Source: an uncultured Bacteroidales bacterium (lineage in GTDB: Bacteria; Bacteroidota; Bacteroidia; Bacteroidales; Muribaculaceae). Taken from it: a DNA stretch of 64,000 nucleotides. The position numbers and the translations under genes were made by a program. The stretch is taken from NCBI GenBank assembly GCA_902777835.1, contig CACYVC010000008.1:1-64000 (forward strand). Reading direction: 5' to 3'. Under the pieces are notes generated by a model. The model did no database searches. It was not told the DNA's origin and saw only the letters and a list, made by a program, of their open reading frames with translations. Shown here one piece after another: positions 6,671 to 19,121 of the stretch (position 1 is its first letter; each line of letters starts with the position of its first letter).

Positions 6671-8524
6671 TTAGAACTGGAAGTAGATGAATGGCTGCAT
6701 CTCGGCTGAGACAAACTGGAACACGAAGAACACAACCACTACGACTATTGCAGCAATCGCGGGTAGTGGTAGGCTTGCAAATGTGTAGCGATATTTGCGT
6801 TTCATCTTTTCAGGAATCCAGTGGATAATCATTCCTAGGACAAAGAGCAGGAACACATTGTGGTAAGCTCCAATCACATCAAAGATGTTGACGTTCCATG
6901 AGGTTCCCATCTGCTGTACCATCGATTTGGCGGTGTTCCATGCCACCTCGTTGGCAGTGGCAGGATCGAGATTAGAACCCGAGCGGAAGAAGAGTCGGGT
7001 GAAGGATATGAACACGAAAGTCACGAATATTGCCCAAGAGTTGGCAAGCCACTTAAGGTTGCGCTCGCGGGTATTGTACTTGTTGTAGAGCCAGCGTATT
7101 ATTGCGCTCACGGCGATGAAGATGGCGCACACCAGTAGCACATTCCACAATGCAGTGGGTGTGAGCCACATGAGTATTAAAAGAACCGCCACAACTATGA
7201 GCGATACCGCTACTCGCCACATAGCCGAGTTATCGCGCCAGAACTTATAGACAATCATTCCCACGCCGTTGAGTCCGCCCCAAATCACGAAATTCATACT
7301 TGCTCCGTGCCATAGACCGCCGAGTAGCATAGTAATCATCGCATTGAGGTTGGCATAGATTTTCTTGCGACGCTCGGGGTGTTTGTAGGCGGTGAAAATC
7401 ACCATTGCAGCCAAAACTAATACTCCCAATGCTACCCACCAACTGCCACTAAGCACTAGAGCGGCAAGAGTGATGACCGATATCCAGAAATAAGTGCCGA
7501 AGGTAATGTTGCGGTTGCCACCAAGGGGTATATATAGATAGGTTTGCAACCAACGCGACAGCGAGATGTGCCACCGCTTCCAGAAGTTGCTACAGTTAAG
7601 GGCTTTGTAAGGAGAGTTAAAGTTCTTGGGCAGGTGGAATCCCATGAGTAGCGACAGTCCTATAGCGATGTCGGTATATCCTGAGAAGTCGGCATAGACT
7701 TGCAACGAATACACAAATAGCGACATGAGATTCTCAAATCCCGAGAAAAGGTGTGGGTTCTCAAACACTCGGTCGATAAAGTTCATGGCAAGGTAGTCGC
7801 TAAGGACGATCTTCTTTACCAATCCATTAAGAATCCAGAATACGGCAAGACCAAACATGCGGTGGCTGATGTTGTACTTCTTGTAGAGCTGAGGAATGAA
7901 GTCGCTAGCCTTGACAATAGGTCCTGCCACGAGTTGCGGGAAGAATGTCACGTAAAAACCAAAGTCAAGAATGTTGCGCACAGGTTTGACTAGGCCTTTA
8001 TAGACATCGGCAGTATAACTGATTACCTGGAATGTGTAGAACGAAATTCCCACGGGCAGGATAATTCGGTCAACATTGAAGAAATTGGTGCCGAGTATCG
8101 AGTTTCCTGCACTGGCAGCGACATTGGTCACTGTCATTTGAAAACCGAAGATGGAGTGTACCATATCGGCAAAGAAGTAGGCATACTTAAAGTAGCACAG
8201 AATGCCGAGGTCGATGGTTACGCTCAGAGCCAGTAATGCTCGTCGCTTCCATTGCACCTTGTTGTTGTGAATGGCCTGGGCTATGAAGAAGTCGGTGCAC
8301 GTCACAAGGATTAGCAGCCCCACAAAGAGTCCGCTTGTCTTATAGTAGAACAAAAGGCTCACAAAGAATAGATAGGAGTTGCGCAGCAGCCTTCTCTTTT
8401 TAGCCAATGCGAAACCTGCAAATACTATAGCGAAGAACGCCCAAAAGTGGAACTGCGTGAATAGCAGTGGACTGTCGGGGTTAAACGAGAAGACCGATAA
8501 TATGTAATCAATAAGTTTCTGCAT
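6671..8524 (-). CDS. MBOAT family O-acyltransferase (AlgI/DltB-like)
   Basis: A 617-residue polytopic membrane protein that moves an acyl group, usually acetyl, across the inner membrane onto an extracytoplasmic polymer. Both conserved histidines are visible: WKRWHISLS (His319) and GGLWHG (His406). I use the ATG at 8524; an in-frame GTG at 8539 is possible. The start overlaps the end of the upstream SGNH gene by 17 bases, indicating translational coupling. The spacing between the two histidine motifs is long: between PLGGNR (about 338) and GGLWHG there are about 60 residues with added hydrophobic stretches, where AlgI has roughly 15. Another hydrophobic insertion follows the second histidine. 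The family is clear; the acceptor polymer is unknown. Confidence 0.88.
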   Translation of the reverse strand: MQKLIDYILSVFSFNPDSPLLFTQFHFWAFFAIVFAGFALAKKRRLLRNSYLFFVSLLFYYKTSGLFVGLLILVTCTDFFIAQAIHNNKVQWKRRALLALSVTIDLGILCYFKYAYFFADMVHSIFGFQMTVTNVAASAGNSILGTNFFNVDRIILPVGISFYTFQVISYTADVYKGLVKPVRNILDFGFYVTFFPQLVAGPIVKASDFIPQLYKKYNISHRMFGLAVFWILNGLVKKIVLSDYLAMNFIDRVFENPHLFSGFENLMSLFVYSLQVYADFSGYTDIAIGLSLLMGFHLPKNFNSPYKALNCSNFWKRWHISLSRWLQTYLYIPLGGNRNITFGTYFWISVITLAALVLSGSWWVALGVLVLAAMVIFTAYKHPERRKKIYANLNAMITMLLGGLWHGASMNFVIWGGLNGVGMIVYKFWRDNSAMWRVAVSLIVVAVLLILMWLTPTALWNVLLVCAIFIAVSAIIRWLYNKYNTRERNLKWLANSWAIFVTFVFISFTRLFFRSGSNLDPATANEVAWNTAKSMVQQMGTSWNVNIFDVIGAYHNVFLLFVLGMIIHWIPEKMKRKYRYTFASLPLPAIAAIVVVVVFFVFQFVSAEMQPFIYFQF

Positions 8525-9770
8525 TGAGGTTTCGTTCACGCCATTTTAGGTATTCTCCAATAATAGCATTATATAGTAAATCTCCTATTAATTTATAGCC
8601 TGTGCTGGTGAAATGTACATGATCGCTTTGCATCAGTCCGTTCCTTACCCATCGAGTAGAGCTACCCAGTCCTCCCATCACTTTATAAAGGTCCCACACC
8701 GAGCCGTTGTTGTCAAGTGCCAGCTCTATGAACACTTTCTCGGCAGAGCGGGTGTTGGGGTTTGCTGAGCGGTTCAAGTGGTTGTCGTTGTTGGTGATGA
8801 AAATGAACTGGCAGTCGGGATTCACGCGCTTGATGCGGTCAATCAGCTGCTGATAGTTGTTCTTGAAGCGGTCGCGGTTGAAGCTTTTGGTGTGGGCGTC
8901 GTTGATGCCTATGCCAAAGATCACCATGTCGGGTTTAGCCACGTGCAGGTCTTTCTCTAGCAGGCTGCATCTGAGCCACGACGTGGTGGCAGCTCCATTC
9001 ACGCCCGATTCCCAGTAGGCTACACCGGGCTCGTCGTTGAGTGCAATAACTCCTCTAAGTTCAAATCGGTTGCCGCTGCCCAAACCATGGAATTTCACGG
9101 TAAATGAAGTGCATCCACGTGGTAGTTCAAAGAAATAACCTGTGTCGTTGTTGCCTTCGGGGTCTTCGACAGCTGTGCTGTCAATCATGATGTAGGGCCT
9201 TACGCTGCTTGATGACGCTTTGCCAATTACCCTTATGTAGCGTGTTGTCCAGTCAATACCGTCGCTTGACGAGAGAGAAAATGTTACGCTGGCATTTGGG
9301 CTCGATGTGGTGGCAGTGATGCCGCTCAGCCCCATCTCTCGGTCAGGACTTTGCTCAATGTTTCGAGTCCTCGACCACGAGCCCGTGCCGCTTACCGAGT
9401 AGTCATGAGGACCGTTGGTATTTACCAGTTTGTAGGGAAACATGATGGTTCTGCTGCCTTTATTACCATTTACGTGCATGGCAAAATTGCGGCGAACGCG
9501 GTGACTGAAAGTGCCAGCCTGGACATGACTGCCTCCTACGTGCCAAATGTTGATAGTGCCGCGATGCCTGTTGATGATATTGTCGAGCTTGCGGAAGAAA
9601 GGCACCAACGCTGCTCGTCCTTCCTTGAAGGTGCGCAGTCCAGCTTCTTTCATATTGACACAAGAGTAGCTTGAGTCGGCGCGTGCAAAAAGACCATTGT
9701 CTTGTGCAACAGAGTTGACAAAGCCACAAAGTGCTATGATGAGTATTAATATGTATTTCGTTTTAATCAT
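8508..9770 (-). CDS. SGNH-hydrolase-like exported protein
   Basis: A 420-residue protein with a signal peptide (hydrophobic residues 7-20, then VAQ). The start at 9770 is chosen because it gives this signal and leaves five bases after the previous stop. Block I reads WHVGGSHVQAG (Ser81), with Gly where GDS families have Asp. Block III is FGIGINDAH and block V is SDHVHFTSTGY. SGNH proteins beside MBOAT transporters usually carry out or assist the periplasmic acyl transfer. It is third-last in the operon and paired with another SGNH protein directly upstream. Whether it is a transferase or an esterase cannot be told from sequence. Confidence 0.78.
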   Translation of the reverse strand: MIKTKYILILIIALCGFVNSVAQDNGLFARADSSYSCVNMKEAGLRTFKEGRAALVPFFRKLDNIINRHRGTINIWHVGGSHVQAGTFSHRVRRNFAMHVNGNKGSRTIMFPYKLVNTNGPHDYSVSGTGSWSRTRNIEQSPDREMGLSGITATTSSPNASVTFSLSSSDGIDWTTRYIRVIGKASSSSVRPYIMIDSTAVEDPEGNNDTGYFFELPRGCTSFTVKFHGLGSGNRFELRGVIALNDEPGVAYWESGVNGAATTSWLRCSLLEKDLHVAKPDMVIFGIGINDAHTKSFNRDRFKNNYQQLIDRIKRVNPDCQFIFITNNDNHLNRSANPNTRSAEKVFIELALDNNGSVWDLYKVMGGLGSSTRWVRNGLMQSDHVHFTSTGYKLIGDLLYNAIIGEYLKWRERNLNAETY

Positions 9771-9775
9771 TAAAA

Positions 9776-11167
9776 TCAATGAAAGTCTTTGGGCGTTTTT
9801 CCCTCTCGCTTGCAATAGAAGTGGTAGTACATCAAAAATGTATTGAAAAGCATATCAGCAACTTCGCTTGCGCCGTCACGTGTGAAATGCACGTAGTCTT
9901 TTCCTGCCAAACCAGCTTTTACCCATTGAATCATGGAATTGTGACCACCCATCGCATCGTATAGGTTCCAGAACGCGATGCCTGTTTCGTTGCACACCTC
10001 TTGAAGCATATTGATAGTTGGCTCAAGTTGCGGATATGTCTCTTTTTTGCCTTTTACGTTGGTTGACATGTCGGCTGGACCGATGAACAGAATCTTTGTC
10101 TCGGGTGACATGGCCTTAAACAGTATAATCTGGGCTAGAAGGCTTTCCTTGTATTTTCTCATTCGTTTTTCCGACTTAAGATAAGGCACAGAGTTTCCAC
10201 CATATTGTAAGATGAGCAGACTCACTTTGTTGCGCTTGAAGAATGGTTCTAAGGTCTTGCGGTCGGTAACGTGGGCAAACACTGTACCCGAACAGCCTCG
10301 CATGGGCACGTTATCAACCGAGATACCGTTTGTGTCGTCGAGCAGCACGGCAAATATCTCCATATTGCCATTGGCGTTAATCGACACCTTTCTTGCTGGT
10401 GAATGTAGGGTGGCGGTGAGGAATTTAACGCCTTCGGTGGTGCCGGCAGCATCGGTCATTGGAAGTGTGGTTCCGTTGGCTGTCAACGTGGCATTGCCTT
10501 TTCCGCAGCACACCATTGTTACCTTTGAGTAGGTTTTAGAGTGGGGCACATCCTCTAGATTAGAGGCTCTATAGGTGAGTTGTACCGAACCGTTAAGGTG
10601 CGCCACCTGCGACATAATGCCATAGCGGCCATTGCGCAGATGCTCGCCCATTGGGTAGGAGAAGTAGGTTGGCAGCTTGCGGCTTGCCGACTGCACAACA
10701 GTCATAGCACCAACATGTTGAATAGCGGGCACCATCCCCACGCCACTGCCACCAAAAGCGGTTTGGAATTTCTCTCTCAGTTCAGCAGAGATTCGGTCTC
10801 CCTCGAGTTGCGAGTCGCCATAGTGTAGCACGCGCATAGGCTCGCTTTTGGCATTCTCCATTGCGTCGAAAAGATCATCAAAATAGGTGATGTCGTTGCC
10901 TGGCACGTGAAAGCGAGCAGGATTTGATTCAGTAAATTTCTTGAACTCCTTGTCGTCGCTAGTGCTTGTGGCTTTAAGTTGCTGCGCTAAGAAGTCTTCT
11001 GGATTCTGTGTGCTTGGCTCGTTGGCCACAGTCAGGATTTCGTCAAGAGTAGGGAACTCATAGTGTATATTTCCAATTGTAATCCCATCTTCTGGAAAAA
11101 TGGCACACAGCACGGCAAGTGCCGCCAGCACGCCAAAGATGAAGATTACAATTTTTCTAGCTTTCAT
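9776..11167 (-). CDS. SGNH-hydrolase-like membrane-anchored protein
   Basis: A 463-residue protein with one N-terminal membrane segment (residues 6-24) and a large extracytoplasmic part. Block I is LHYGDSQLEGDR (Ser119). LLILQYGGNS fits block III and KDYVHFTRDG holds the C-terminal Asp/His pair. It is the first gene of the leftward operon, followed after five bases by a second SGNH protein, then MBOAT and the lipoprotein. The two SGNH proteins share the fold but little sequence, so they probably act on different substrates or steps. A CAAAGTAA sequence at 11216-11223 is a near match (minus strand) to the -7 box. Confidence 0.8.
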   Translation of the reverse strand: MKARKIVIFIFGVLAALAVLCAIFPEDGITIGNIHYEFPTLDEILTVANEPSTQNPEDFLAQQLKATSTSDDKEFKKFTESNPARFHVPGNDITYFDDLFDAMENAKSEPMRVLHYGDSQLEGDRISAELREKFQTAFGGSGVGMVPAIQHVGAMTVVQSASRKLPTYFSYPMGEHLRNGRYGIMSQVAHLNGSVQLTYRASNLEDVPHSKTYSKVTMVCCGKGNATLTANGTTLPMTDAAGTTEGVKFLTATLHSPARKVSINANGNMEIFAVLLDDTNGISVDNVPMRGCSGTVFAHVTDRKTLEPFFKRNKVSLLILQYGGNSVPYLKSEKRMRKYKESLLAQIILFKAMSPETKILFIGPADMSTNVKGKKETYPQLEPTINMLQEVCNETGIAFWNLYDAMGGHNSMIQWVKAGLAGKDYVHFTRDGASEVADMLFNTFLMYYHFYCKREGKTPKDFH

Positions 11168-11259
11168 TACTCTTCTTATCTGAAATTATTAATATTATAT
11201 TTTTAAAAAAGCGTGCAAAGTAACACAAAATATTTCAAATAGATGTGCCTTTCCTCCTA

Positions 11260-11286
11260 AAAACCTCGTTTATTGAGGTTTTTTAC
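11260..11286. terminator. Orphan terminator-like hairpin
   Basis: AAAACCTC (11260-11267) pairs with GAGGTTTT (11275-11282), with T-rich sequence following on the plus strand and A-rich sequence before it. No gene ends here on either strand, because both flanking operons read away from it. Confidence 0.5.
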
Positions 11287-11501
11287 CAATCTGAAGGCTC
11301 TTTTTCAAGATTTTAAATGGTTTGTGACTATGATTTGGTTCGGTGAGTGTGTAGAATATTACAGAATTTTGCTTTCTTTTTTTACACAATAGAAGATTCC
11401 TTCCTACTTCTTGAAGAATTATGTTGTGATTAATATTTGCTAATTATGTTAATCTTCCTTAATTTTAATGCTTCTAAGGGCGTTTTGGCATGGTGGTATA
11501 G

Positions 11502-11531
11502 TTGCTATTAATAAATAATGTTGTACCTTTG
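11502..11531 (+). promoter_or_regulatory. Promoter of the rplM-rpsI operon
   Basis: TTG (11502-11504), 19 bases, then TACCTTTG (11524-11531). This is an exact fit to the Bacteroidetes housekeeping promoter. Confidence 0.8.
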
Positions 11532-11642
11532 CACGCCGATTATATCCAAGATAATTTCAGCAGCGTGCCAGAGAGTGACATTTGGCCGTGTCATTGTGCG
11601 CTCTGTTGAAGATTTAATTAATTTTTAATCAGGATTTTAAAA
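11532..11642 (+). ncRNA. Possible rplM (L13) leader structure
   Basis: The leader can fold into two hairpins. One pairs GCACGC (11531-11536) with GCGTGC (11563-11568), with ATTAT/ATAAT inside. The other pairs CAGAG (11569-11573) with CTCTG (11601-11605), with TGACA/TGTCA inside. Ribosomal operons of Bacteroidia are often autoregulated through such leaders. No covariation test was possible, and the first helix begins at the promoter edge. Confidence 0.4.
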
Positions 11643-12053
11643 GTGAACACTTTAAGTTACAAGACCGTGTCTATCCGCAAGGAAGACGTACAGAAAGAAT
11701 GGGTAGTAGTACATGTGGATTGTGGTGACAATGTTATAATCATCAATGCCGATAAGGTTCAACTCACTGGTAAAAAGTGGGAAGACCGCACCTATGTTAG
11801 CTACACAGGCTATCCCGGTGGTCAGCGTTATGCAACCCCTGCCATCCTCCAAAAGAAGTCGGAGATTCATCAATCAAGGGCTCGTGGCAATCAGCGCGGC
11901 AAACACCCCTTGTTCATGCACGTGATTAAGGGCATGCTCCCCAAGAACAAACTTGGCGCTCAGATTCTGAACAATGTATATATCTACAATGGTCCAGATC
12001 ATCCCCATGAGGCTCAGCAACCTAAAGTAATTGATATCAACAAACTTAAATAA
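11643..12053 (+). CDS. rplM: 50S ribosomal protein L13, internally deleted
   Basis: L13 binds 23S rRNA early in 50S assembly. The reading frame is open (136 residues) and begins with GTG; the N-terminus MNTLSYKTVSIRKEDV matches Bacteroidales L13. After KEWVVV (residue 23) the sequence jumps directly to HVDCGDNVIIINADKV. In E. coli and Bacteroides about 28 residues lie between these blocks (DATGxxLGRL...LRGKxKxxxTP), including the helix that packs on rRNA. Further on, between LQKKSE and HVIKGMLPK, there are about 11 more residues than expected, strongly basic (HQSRARGNQRGKH). The C-terminus is normal (AQQPKVIDINKLK). rpsI follows after eight bases. Identity is certain; whether this gene is functional, mutated or misassembled is not. 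Confidence 0.9.
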   Translation: MNTLSYKTVSIRKEDVQKEWVVVHVDCGDNVIIINADKVQLTGKKWEDRTYVSYTGYPGGQRYATPAILQKKSEIHQSRARGNQRGKHPLFMHVIKGMLPKNKLGAQILNNVYIYNGPDHPHEAQQPKVIDINKLK

Positions 12054-12061
12054 TTGGAAGT

Positions 12062-12448
12062 ATGGAACAGATTAATGCAGTAGGTCGTCGTAAAGCAGCT
12101 ATCGCACGCGTGTATGTTAGCGAAGGTAATGGCGAGATCACAATCAACAAGCGTACACTTGAAGAATACTTCCCATCTCCAATTCTTCAATTCATCGTTA
12201 AACAGCCATTGAACACCATCGAGGCAACCGAGAAGTATAACATCAAGGTGAACCTCATTGGTGGTGGTTACAAGGGACAAGCCGAGGCTCTGCGTTTGGC
12301 TATCGCTCGTGCTCTGGTGAAGATCAACGCCGAGGATAAGAGCGCGCTTCGCAAGGAAGGCTTCATGACTCGCGACCCACGTGCCGTAGAGCGCAAGAAA
12401 CCTGGACAGCCCAAGGCCCGCAAGCGTTTCCAATTCAGCAAGCGTTAA
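12062..12448 (+). CDS. rpsI: 30S ribosomal protein S9
   Basis: A 128-residue S9 of normal length and layout. It starts with MEQINAVGRRKAAIARVYV and ends in the characteristic basic tail KARKRFQFSKR, whose final Arg reaches the P-site tRNA. The GGGYKGQAEALRLAIARAL block is typical. It follows rplM by eight bases, the standard L13-S9 pair. Unlike its neighbour it shows no abnormality. Confidence 0.97.
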   Translation: MEQINAVGRRKAAIARVYVSEGNGEITINKRTLEEYFPSPILQFIVKQPLNTIEATEKYNIKVNLIGGGYKGQAEALRLAIARALVKINAEDKSALRKEGFMTRDPRAVERKKPGQPKARKRFQFSKR

Positions 12449-12613
12449 TATTATTATTTTATTTCAACGCCTTGCTCTGGAAACAAAACAGAGTTTAGTA
12501 TCCAAATTGCATAGACTCTTCATGTGGCAACACATTAATATAATATAGACTCTCACATGTTGGCTACTATGCGATTGATTAAGTTGAACGTAAACAAAAC
12601 AATTTTTTAAACA
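12449..12613 (+). ncRNA. Possible rpsB (S2) leader structure
   Basis: The 165 bases before rpsB contain nested pairing. TTGCATAG (12507-12514) pairs with CTATGCGA (12567-12574), allowing one G-U pair, and CATGTG (12521-12526) pairs with CACATG (12554-12559). The 9-base word ATAGACTCT occurs twice inside (12511-12519 and 12545-12553). This suggests a structured regulatory leader for rpsB-tsf; it is untested. Confidence 0.4.
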
Positions 12614-13483
12614 ATGCAAACACCAAATTTTGACCAATTACTTGACGCTACCTGTCACTTTGGTCACCTGAAACGTAAATGGAACCCCGCCATGGCTCCC
12701 TATATCTTTATGGAGCGTAATGGCATTCACATTATTGACCTCTACAAGACTCAGGCTAAGCTTGAAGAAGCTGCCGTTGCCCTCAAGAACATTGCTAAGA
12801 GTGGTCGCAAGGTTTTGTTCGTTGCCACTAAGAAGCAAGCTAAGCAAGTCGTTGCCGACCGCGCTACTTCGGTTGGAATGCCTTACGTTGTTGAGCGCTG
12901 GCCAGGCGGTATGCTTACCAACTTCCCCACCATCCGCAAGGCTGTGAAGAAGATGGCTTCAATCGACAAGATGACTACCGATGGTACATTCGACAACATG
13001 TCGAAGCGCGAGCGCCTTCAAATCACTCGTCAGCGTGCGAAACTCGAGAAGAACCTTGGTTCTATCGCTGAGATGAAGGCTCTGCCATCTGCTCTCTTCG
13101 TTGTTGATGTGCTGAAAGAGCACATTGCTGTTGCTGAGGCTAACCGTCTTGGAATCCCCGTATTTGGCATCGTTGATACCAACAGCAATCCAGAGAACGT
13201 GGATTTCGTAATCCCCGCCAATGACGACGCTTCTAAATCAATCGACATTATCCTTAACACCGTGTGTGAGGCAATCACCGAAGGCGTAGAGGAGCGCAAG
13301 ATTGAGAAGATCGACAACAAGGACGAGGCTGCCGAGGAAGAGAACGAAGGTGCTGCCGAGGCAAAGCCCCGCCGCGAGAGAGTACGCCGCAAAGCTGCTC
13401 CTAAGGCTGAGGTAAAAGAAGAGCCTGCAGATGAAGCTCCTGCTGAGGAGCCAGCAGCTGAGGAAGAAGCTAAGGCCGAGTAA
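12614..13483 (+). CDS. rpsB: 30S ribosomal protein S2
   Basis: A 289-residue S2. The core (residues 1-225) has the expected blocks FGHLKRKWNPAMAPYIF, VERWPGGMLTNF and GIPVFGIVDTNSNPENVDFV. The last 60 residues are a low-complexity tail rich in Ala, Glu, Lys and Arg, an extension common in Bacteroidetes S2. One early position reads DATCHFGHL where many S2 proteins have AGVHFGH. tsf follows after 53 bases, the usual order. Confidence 0.97.
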   Translation: MQTPNFDQLLDATCHFGHLKRKWNPAMAPYIFMERNGIHIIDLYKTQAKLEEAAVALKNIAKSGRKVLFVATKKQAKQVVADRATSVGMPYVVERWPGGMLTNFPTIRKAVKKMASIDKMTTDGTFDNMSKRERLQITRQRAKLEKNLGSIAEMKALPSALFVVDVLKEHIAVAEANRLGIPVFGIVDTNSNPENVDFVIPANDDASKSIDIILNTVCEAITEGVEERKIEKIDNKDEAAEEENEGAAEAKPRRERVRRKAAPKAEVKEEPADEAPAEEPAAEEEAKAE

Positions 13484-13536
13484 TTCTCAAGAGTTCACTA
13501 ATTATAGGTAATAATTTTAAATTTTAAAAAACAATT

Positions 13537-14532
13537 ATGGCTGTTTCAATTAACGACATAAAGAAGTTGCGTGAGATTACCAATGCTGGTATGGTTGATT
13601 GCAAGAAGGCTCTCATTGAGGCCGAGAACGATATGGACAAGGCAGTGGAGATTATCCGCAAGCGTGGTCAGGCTATCGCTGCTAAGCGTGGCGACCGCAC
13701 TGCTGCCGAAGGTATTGCTAAGTGCAAGGTTGTAGGTAACTTTGGTGCTATCGTAGCGCTGAAGTGCGAGACCGAGCCTGTTGCTGGTACCGAGAAGTTT
13801 GTCACTCTGGCCAACCGCATTCTCGACGAGGCTGTTGCCGCTAAGGTACAGAACATCGACGAGCTCAAAAACTTCACATTCGACGGCGCTACCGTTGCTG
13901 AGCACATCACTGCTCTGAGCGGTATCACTGGCGAGAAGATGGAGCTTGGTGCTTATGAGTGCCTTGAGGCTGCTGGCATCGCTGGTTACAACCACTTCAA
14001 CAAGAAGCTCTCTACTCTCGTTGCTTTCAGCGCTCCTGTTGATGAGGAGACTGGTAAGGCTGTTGCTATGCAGGTTGCCGCTATGCGCCCTGTTGCTGCT
14101 AGCCGTGAGCAGATTCCTCAGAATGTAATCGACGAGGAGACTAGCATCGCTATTGAGAAGACCAAGAGCGAGCAAGTGCAGAAGGCTGTTGAGAACGCCT
14201 TGAAGAAGGCTGGCTTCAACCCCTACTACTGCGCTACTGAGGAGCATCAGGACGAGGCTGTTCGCAAGGGTTATATGACTCCAGAGCAGGTTGAGCAGGC
14301 TAAGAAGCTCATGGCCGATACCGCCGATGCTAAGCTCAAGAGCATGCCTGAGCAGATGATCCAGAACATCGTGAAGGGCCGCATGGAGAAGTTCTACAAG
14401 GAGAACATTCTTATGGAGCAGGAGTATGAGGCTAGCGAGGAGAAGGGCATGACTATCGCCATGTTCCTCGACAAGGCTCAAAAGGGTCTCGTTGCTACCG
14501 CTCTGAAGCGTGTAAATCTTAACGCTGACTAA
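13537..14532 (+). CDS. tsf: Elongation factor Ts, with altered TDFVA motif
   Basis: A 331-residue EF-Ts, the nucleotide-exchange factor for EF-Tu. The UBA-like N-terminus is standard (LREITNAGMVDCKKALIEAE), as are MELGAYECLEAAGIAGYNHF and MPEQMIQNIVKGRMEKFYKE. The core motif, normally TDFVAxN, reads TEPVAGT at residues 79-85. In E. coli the equivalent Asp80 and Phe81 insert into EF-Tu near the Mg2+ site and drive GDP release. Here both are replaced (Glu80, Pro81). The rest of the protein is intact and the operon is normal. A strong terminator follows. Confidence 0.95.
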   Translation: MAVSINDIKKLREITNAGMVDCKKALIEAENDMDKAVEIIRKRGQAIAAKRGDRTAAEGIAKCKVVGNFGAIVALKCETEPVAGTEKFVTLANRILDEAVAAKVQNIDELKNFTFDGATVAEHITALSGITGEKMELGAYECLEAAGIAGYNHFNKKLSTLVAFSAPVDEETGKAVAMQVAAMRPVAASREQIPQNVIDEETSIAIEKTKSEQVQKAVENALKKAGFNPYYCATEEHQDEAVRKGYMTPEQVEQAKKLMADTADAKLKSMPEQMIQNIVKGRMEKFYKENILMEQEYEASEEKGMTIAMFLDKAQKGLVATALKRVNLNAD

Positions 14533-18951: not shown

Positions 18952-18976
18952 TTAACTCGCCTATTGTTTTATCTTG

Positions 18977-19006
18977 CAAAATTAGTGCAAGTTATGAGAA
19001 ATACAA
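18977..19006 (-). promoter_or_regulatory. Promoter of the AI-2E family permease
   Basis: On the minus strand there is a TTG (19004-19006), 19 bases, then TAATTTTG (18977-18984). Confidence 0.65.
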
Positions 19007-19121
19007 AAAGAAAAATGAAGTTTTTCGTTTTTATTTCCGAGCCTCTAGCTGATTTATCCAAAATTTGTGCTAATTGAATTAGAAATGTGTGCAGATGAGA
19101 GTATAATGTGCCAAAAATCCT

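Follow-up and report, generated by a model that had tools for sequence, protein, structure and literature searches.

A gene for the ribosomal protein uL13 (rplM) in the window, by which we mean the whole 64,000-nucleotide stretch analysed, lacks 84 nt that its congeners carry. In this metagenome-derived genome, the loss very probably arose as an assembly (consensus) fault, and an ordinary full-length rplM is most likely what the organism itself carries. The feature is real in the sequence record, and as a biological feature it is most likely not real. The genome from which the window comes (G000, here the own genome) consists of 52 contigs with a listed completeness of 90.02%.

The rplM frame and its junction

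The features on which the argument turns are the following.

11643..12053, + strand: rplM (ribosomal protein uL13) without 28 internal codons; an open frame of 136 aa with a GTG start and a terminal stop
11711..11712, + strand: deletion junction at which 84 nt of the congeners are missing (pairwise gaps against G001, G010 and G081; 28-residue gap against seven of seven relatives)
11612..11711, + strand: left flank, identical over exactly 100 nt to G010, another species of the genus, and ending at the junction
11862..11900 (approximate, counted from the frame), + strand: extended basic loop, 13 residues longer than in uL13 of PDB 9i5t
12062..12448, + strand: rpsI (ribosomal protein uS9), a whole-domain match that keeps the gene order of the rplM-rpsI operon

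The first-pass annotation, made from the letters alone, had described an L13 without a conserved 28-residue core segment, lost as an exact multiple of three, and this description holds: 84 nt, or 28 codons, are absent relative to the relatives, and the frame stays open. KEWVVV is joined directly to HVDCGDN, and the N-terminal block DAT...LGRL...LRGK...TP of intact relatives is missing from both the alignments and the profile coverage. The annotation was also right that there is a break, which it placed after 11714; the position is 3 nt off, as the break falls between the codons that meet at 11711/11712, ambiguous by one base in the DNA. The GTG start that it pointed out is present and is normal for the genus, being the start codon in all ten aligned L13 sequences, that of the window included.

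What remains of the protein is still recognized by family models. The frame scores 73 bits against Pfam PF00572 (cut-off 23.8), covering profile positions 35-119 of 119, and 102.2 bits against NCBIfam TIGR01066 (cut-off 93.05). The nearest solved structures are the uL13 chains 9i5t_M and 7jil_J of the PDB, to which the regions outside the gap align (E 9.2e-41 for 9i5t_M). Set against 9i5t_M, the window protein differs in two places: it lacks the 28 residues that would stand between KEWVVV and HVDCGDN, and its loop near residue 80 is longer by 13. This loop accounts for the roughly 11 extra, mostly basic residues reported earlier; they are there (13 relative to 9i5t) but are not peculiar to the window. 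In this genus, the L13 loop is rich in basic residues and varies in length by species, reaching up to 13 residues more than in 9i5t_M. Since its length is equal in the close congeners G001 and G081, with shorter versions in other congeners, the extended loop is, judging from the aligned sequences, a trait of the genus.

The two sides of the junction overlap by 1 nt only, so the loss is not a simple k-mer collapse. Slippage through direct repeats is ruled out by the same overlap. A single base of microhomology is compatible with illegitimate recombination and so would fit a real and recent deletion of 84 nt that some cells or a strain carry and that entered the consensus although full-length rplM persists in most cells. 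We consider such an event unlikely. Its carriers should be unfit, since early assembly of the large subunit in vitro depends on five proteins, L13 among them (PMC6736130). A second suspected deletion, near 12459-12464, was seen against G001; of the five relatives compared there, only G001 carries the additional sequence, and in a sixth, G015, the pattern had no match.

The missing block in relatives

A protein-level scan of the window finds the 28-residue gap against all seven L13-bearing congeners, and alignment with the L13 proteins of these sister genomes, a check proposed with the first description, shows that each of the seven keeps the segment. The genus comprises 101 genomes, the own genome included, of which 22 have no L13 match. 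Among the remaining 79, the match covers the whole domain in 74; the five others are the own genome, G019, G082, G008 and G021. The pattern extends to the order, where L13 is matched in 284 of 294 genomes (completeness of at least 80, own genome included). Judged by the E-value of each genome, 283 of these 284 score like full-length L13 and the own genome is the exception: the weakest of the other 283 reaches E 9.3e-38, similar to the whole-domain matches of the genus, and the own genome E 3.5e-19.

This distribution bears on the most far-reaching reading, namely that the whole species makes a shortened, working L13 whose first strand runs directly into the second, with a ribosome that tolerates the absence of the first helix and of the loop contacting rRNA. 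The open frame, the in-frame deletion, scores above the Pfam and NCBIfam cut-offs, and the failure to find a second copy or a stray segment in the own genome are in keeping with it. Nevertheless, we hold it to be very unlikely. The whole domain is present in 74 of 79 genus genomes, the other four exceptions being contig ends or frameshifts; in the order, 283 of 284 genomes give scores like those of full-length genes, by E-value; and four relatives have identical amino acids throughout the block. In the L13 fold, the missing block would make up the final part of the first strand, the first helix and the loop that touches 23S rRNA. The strands that flank the first helix of L13 are parallel, and loss of a helix between strands so arranged would break the core fold.

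Alternatively, the missing segment could be supplied from elsewhere, by a second full rplM, a split gene or repair at the RNA level. The first-pass annotation had raised a normal rplM at another place as something that would make this copy redundant, and none turned up: a profile search of the own genome, a bin only about 90% complete, gives a single L13 match and no second rplM, and a search with the missing segment for a stray copy does no better than chance (E 1.39). Nor does any of the 79 L13-bearing genomes of the genus show two whole copies. A second copy could lie unbinned, given a completeness of about 90%; even so, a supply from elsewhere is so improbable as to be nearly negligible.

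Selection on the gene gives a further measure of how old a real loss could be. Over the shared codons, dN/dS between the window gene and G001, G010, G011 and G081 is 0.079-0.110, compared with 0.083-0.121 among those four, and the remaining codons of the window rplM are under normal constraint. In the missing 28 codons, the six pairs of the four intact relatives differ by 0 amino acids and by 4 to 7 silent changes. An old loss of this block should leave relaxed or compensating change, of which there is no sign. A real deletion of very recent date would give the same picture, normal constraint in the rest of the gene being what a very young change predicts, so the selection data speak only against an old deletion.

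As a control for the window as a whole, we scanned 190 stop-to-stop frames with homologues in the fetched relatives, on both strands and with many frames overlapping, for gaps of at least 8 residues in hits of at least 45% identity. In the parts of the window with fetched relatives, no other gap of this size against all relatives was found wherever more than one relative was comparable. The antisense frame over rplM shows the same 28-residue gap, and frame 8511-9854 has one 9-residue gap against G081, the sole relative comparable there.

Damage to rplM-rpsI in other assemblies and the state of the bin

Four other assemblies of the genus carry sharp, unrelated deletions in the same pair of genes.

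G019 (locus L113): sharp 77-nt deletion inside L13, frameshift (pairwise alignment)
G082 (locus L133): sharp 92-nt deletion inside L13, frameshift (pairwise alignment)
G101 (locus L136): 68-nt deletion across the gene boundary, L13 and S9 fused in one 275-codon frame (pairwise alignment)
G017 (locus L014): 19-nt deletion in S9, S9 match split in two

The lengths for G019, G082 and G101 come from pairwise comparison; in the multiple alignment the gaps span 77, 104 and 81 columns. These deletions lie at different places in the two genes and are indifferent to the reading frame. Contig ends are also found here, within L13 in G008 and G021 and within S9 in G020 and G023. In G002 and G060, rplM and rpsI are split between two contigs, near the ends of these. 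In total, among the 79 L13-bearing genomes, five have a sharp rplM-rpsI deletion, the own genome included, and six have a contig end at this place. A biological reason for frameshifts in a single-copy gene such as L13 is hard to see, and such parallel frameshifting deletions point to a technical cause, which also weakens the case for a recent deletion in some cells. Partial genes as such are not peculiar to L13, since 3 of 88 matches to CoaE, used as a control in the same 101 genomes, cover less than 75% of the profile, a small difference from 5 of 79 for L13 in a comparison of profile coverage only. Two of these partial CoaE matches, in G072 and G113, begin within 3 nt of a contig start; the third is in G022.

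Long stretches of exact sequence are shared between species around these genes. The longest exact runs between the window and G001, G010, G011 and G081 are 160 nt (ending at 12201, in rpsI), 134 nt (11509-11642, directly upstream of rplM and shared with one of the four) and, third, the 100 nt that end at 11711, at the junction; this ranking holds for the fetched pieces of the four congeners, which cover the window unequally. To the right of the junction, exact sharing is at most 14 nt with any genome compared. Three of the deletions in other assemblies also have one flank that is shared exactly, over 56 nt in G019, 54 nt in G101 and 89 nt in G017; neither flank of the G082 deletion is shared over more than 12 nt.

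The bin itself has gaps. L14 has no match in the own genome, as in two of seven congeners, and neither has 23S rRNA, with 12 of 28 candidates scored in a search that matched 10 of 14 control genomes. The own genome thus gave no 23S sequence in which to look for changes that compensate for a shortened L13. Together with these absences, an L2 match that starts 510 nt from the end of a contig makes the main cluster of ribosomal protein genes look broken in the bin; the searched rpoB domain and CoaE are whole. The absences of L14 and 23S rRNA are weak evidence for a fault of the bin.

Genes for ribosomal proteins missing from near-complete metagenome-assembled genomes (MAGs) are a documented problem, and Mise and Iwasaki 2022 (PMC9723686) trace them mainly to binning and argue against assembly failure. 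The present bin resembles the MAGs described there, being about 90% complete and without an L14 match, and 22 of 101 genus genomes have no L13 match. The difference is that the text concerns absence of whole genes, mainly through binning, whereas here a short internal stretch is lost within a contig. The position of PMC9723686 bears against a general claim of assembly failure, and its passages considered here do not address a local fault within a contig. Among the literature matches listed, PMC10523443 included, none deals by its title or the start of its abstract with internal deletions in ribosomal genes of metagenome bins.

The first-pass annotation had left two readings side by side, a rearranged essential protein or an assembly fault. 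The former is unsupported. The latter is favored because unrelated deletions and contig ends hit rplM-rpsI in other assemblies of the genus, because the left flank repeats 100 nt of another species exactly and, as weaker evidence, because L14 and 23S rRNA are unmatched in the bin. Under an assembly fault, the bin would derive from short reads of a community in which several species share stretches of 100-160 nt. The assembler may have broken at such a shared stretch in rplM-rpsI, and the flanks would then have been joined without the intervening 84 nt. Several points weigh against this account: the deletion preserves the reading frame; a long shared repeat is found to the left of the junction only, exact sharing on the right being limited to 14 nt or less; and a junction overlap of 1 nt does not allow a particular assembler step to be named. 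A length divisible by three would, under an assembly fault, be a one-in-three accident that made the case look meaningful.

Significance and neighboring features

If true, a shortened L13 would overturn the view of the L13 core as indispensable for early 50S assembly. We would give very little credence to a living bacterium whose only uL13 has neither the first helix nor the rRNA-contact loop and whose 50S subunit assembles without them. No viable bacterium without this L13 block is described, by title or the start of the abstract, among the literature matches listed, which include PMC6736130 and PMC4014445. As the assembly fault that it most likely is, the finding serves as a caution, in that sharp internal deletions can occur in ribosomal genes of bins of this genus. 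An in-frame deletion still passes the cut-offs of family models and could therefore enter marker-gene trees and annotation unnoticed.

Three features near these genes or farther along the window are of separate interest. The 134-nt identical run at 11509-11642, upstream of rplM, possibly holds a promoter and an L13 leader. Downstream, the leader of rpsB (which starts at 12614), at 12488-12613 of the window, contains a conserved, covarying hairpin in 16 aligned sequences, with 20 predicted pairs, 9 of which have both partners changed in one or more sequences. By an exact-string search, the core of this leader is present in 15 of 24 loci and absent in 9. No Rfam family matches the stretch 11200-13600 at E up to 1, and no title among the literature matches listed concerns an rpsB leader in Bacteroidetes. 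The rpsB leader of the window looks like an autoregulatory leader for S2. Finally, a short repeat at about 18965-19078 of the window has many dispersed copies in each of the four congeners searched.
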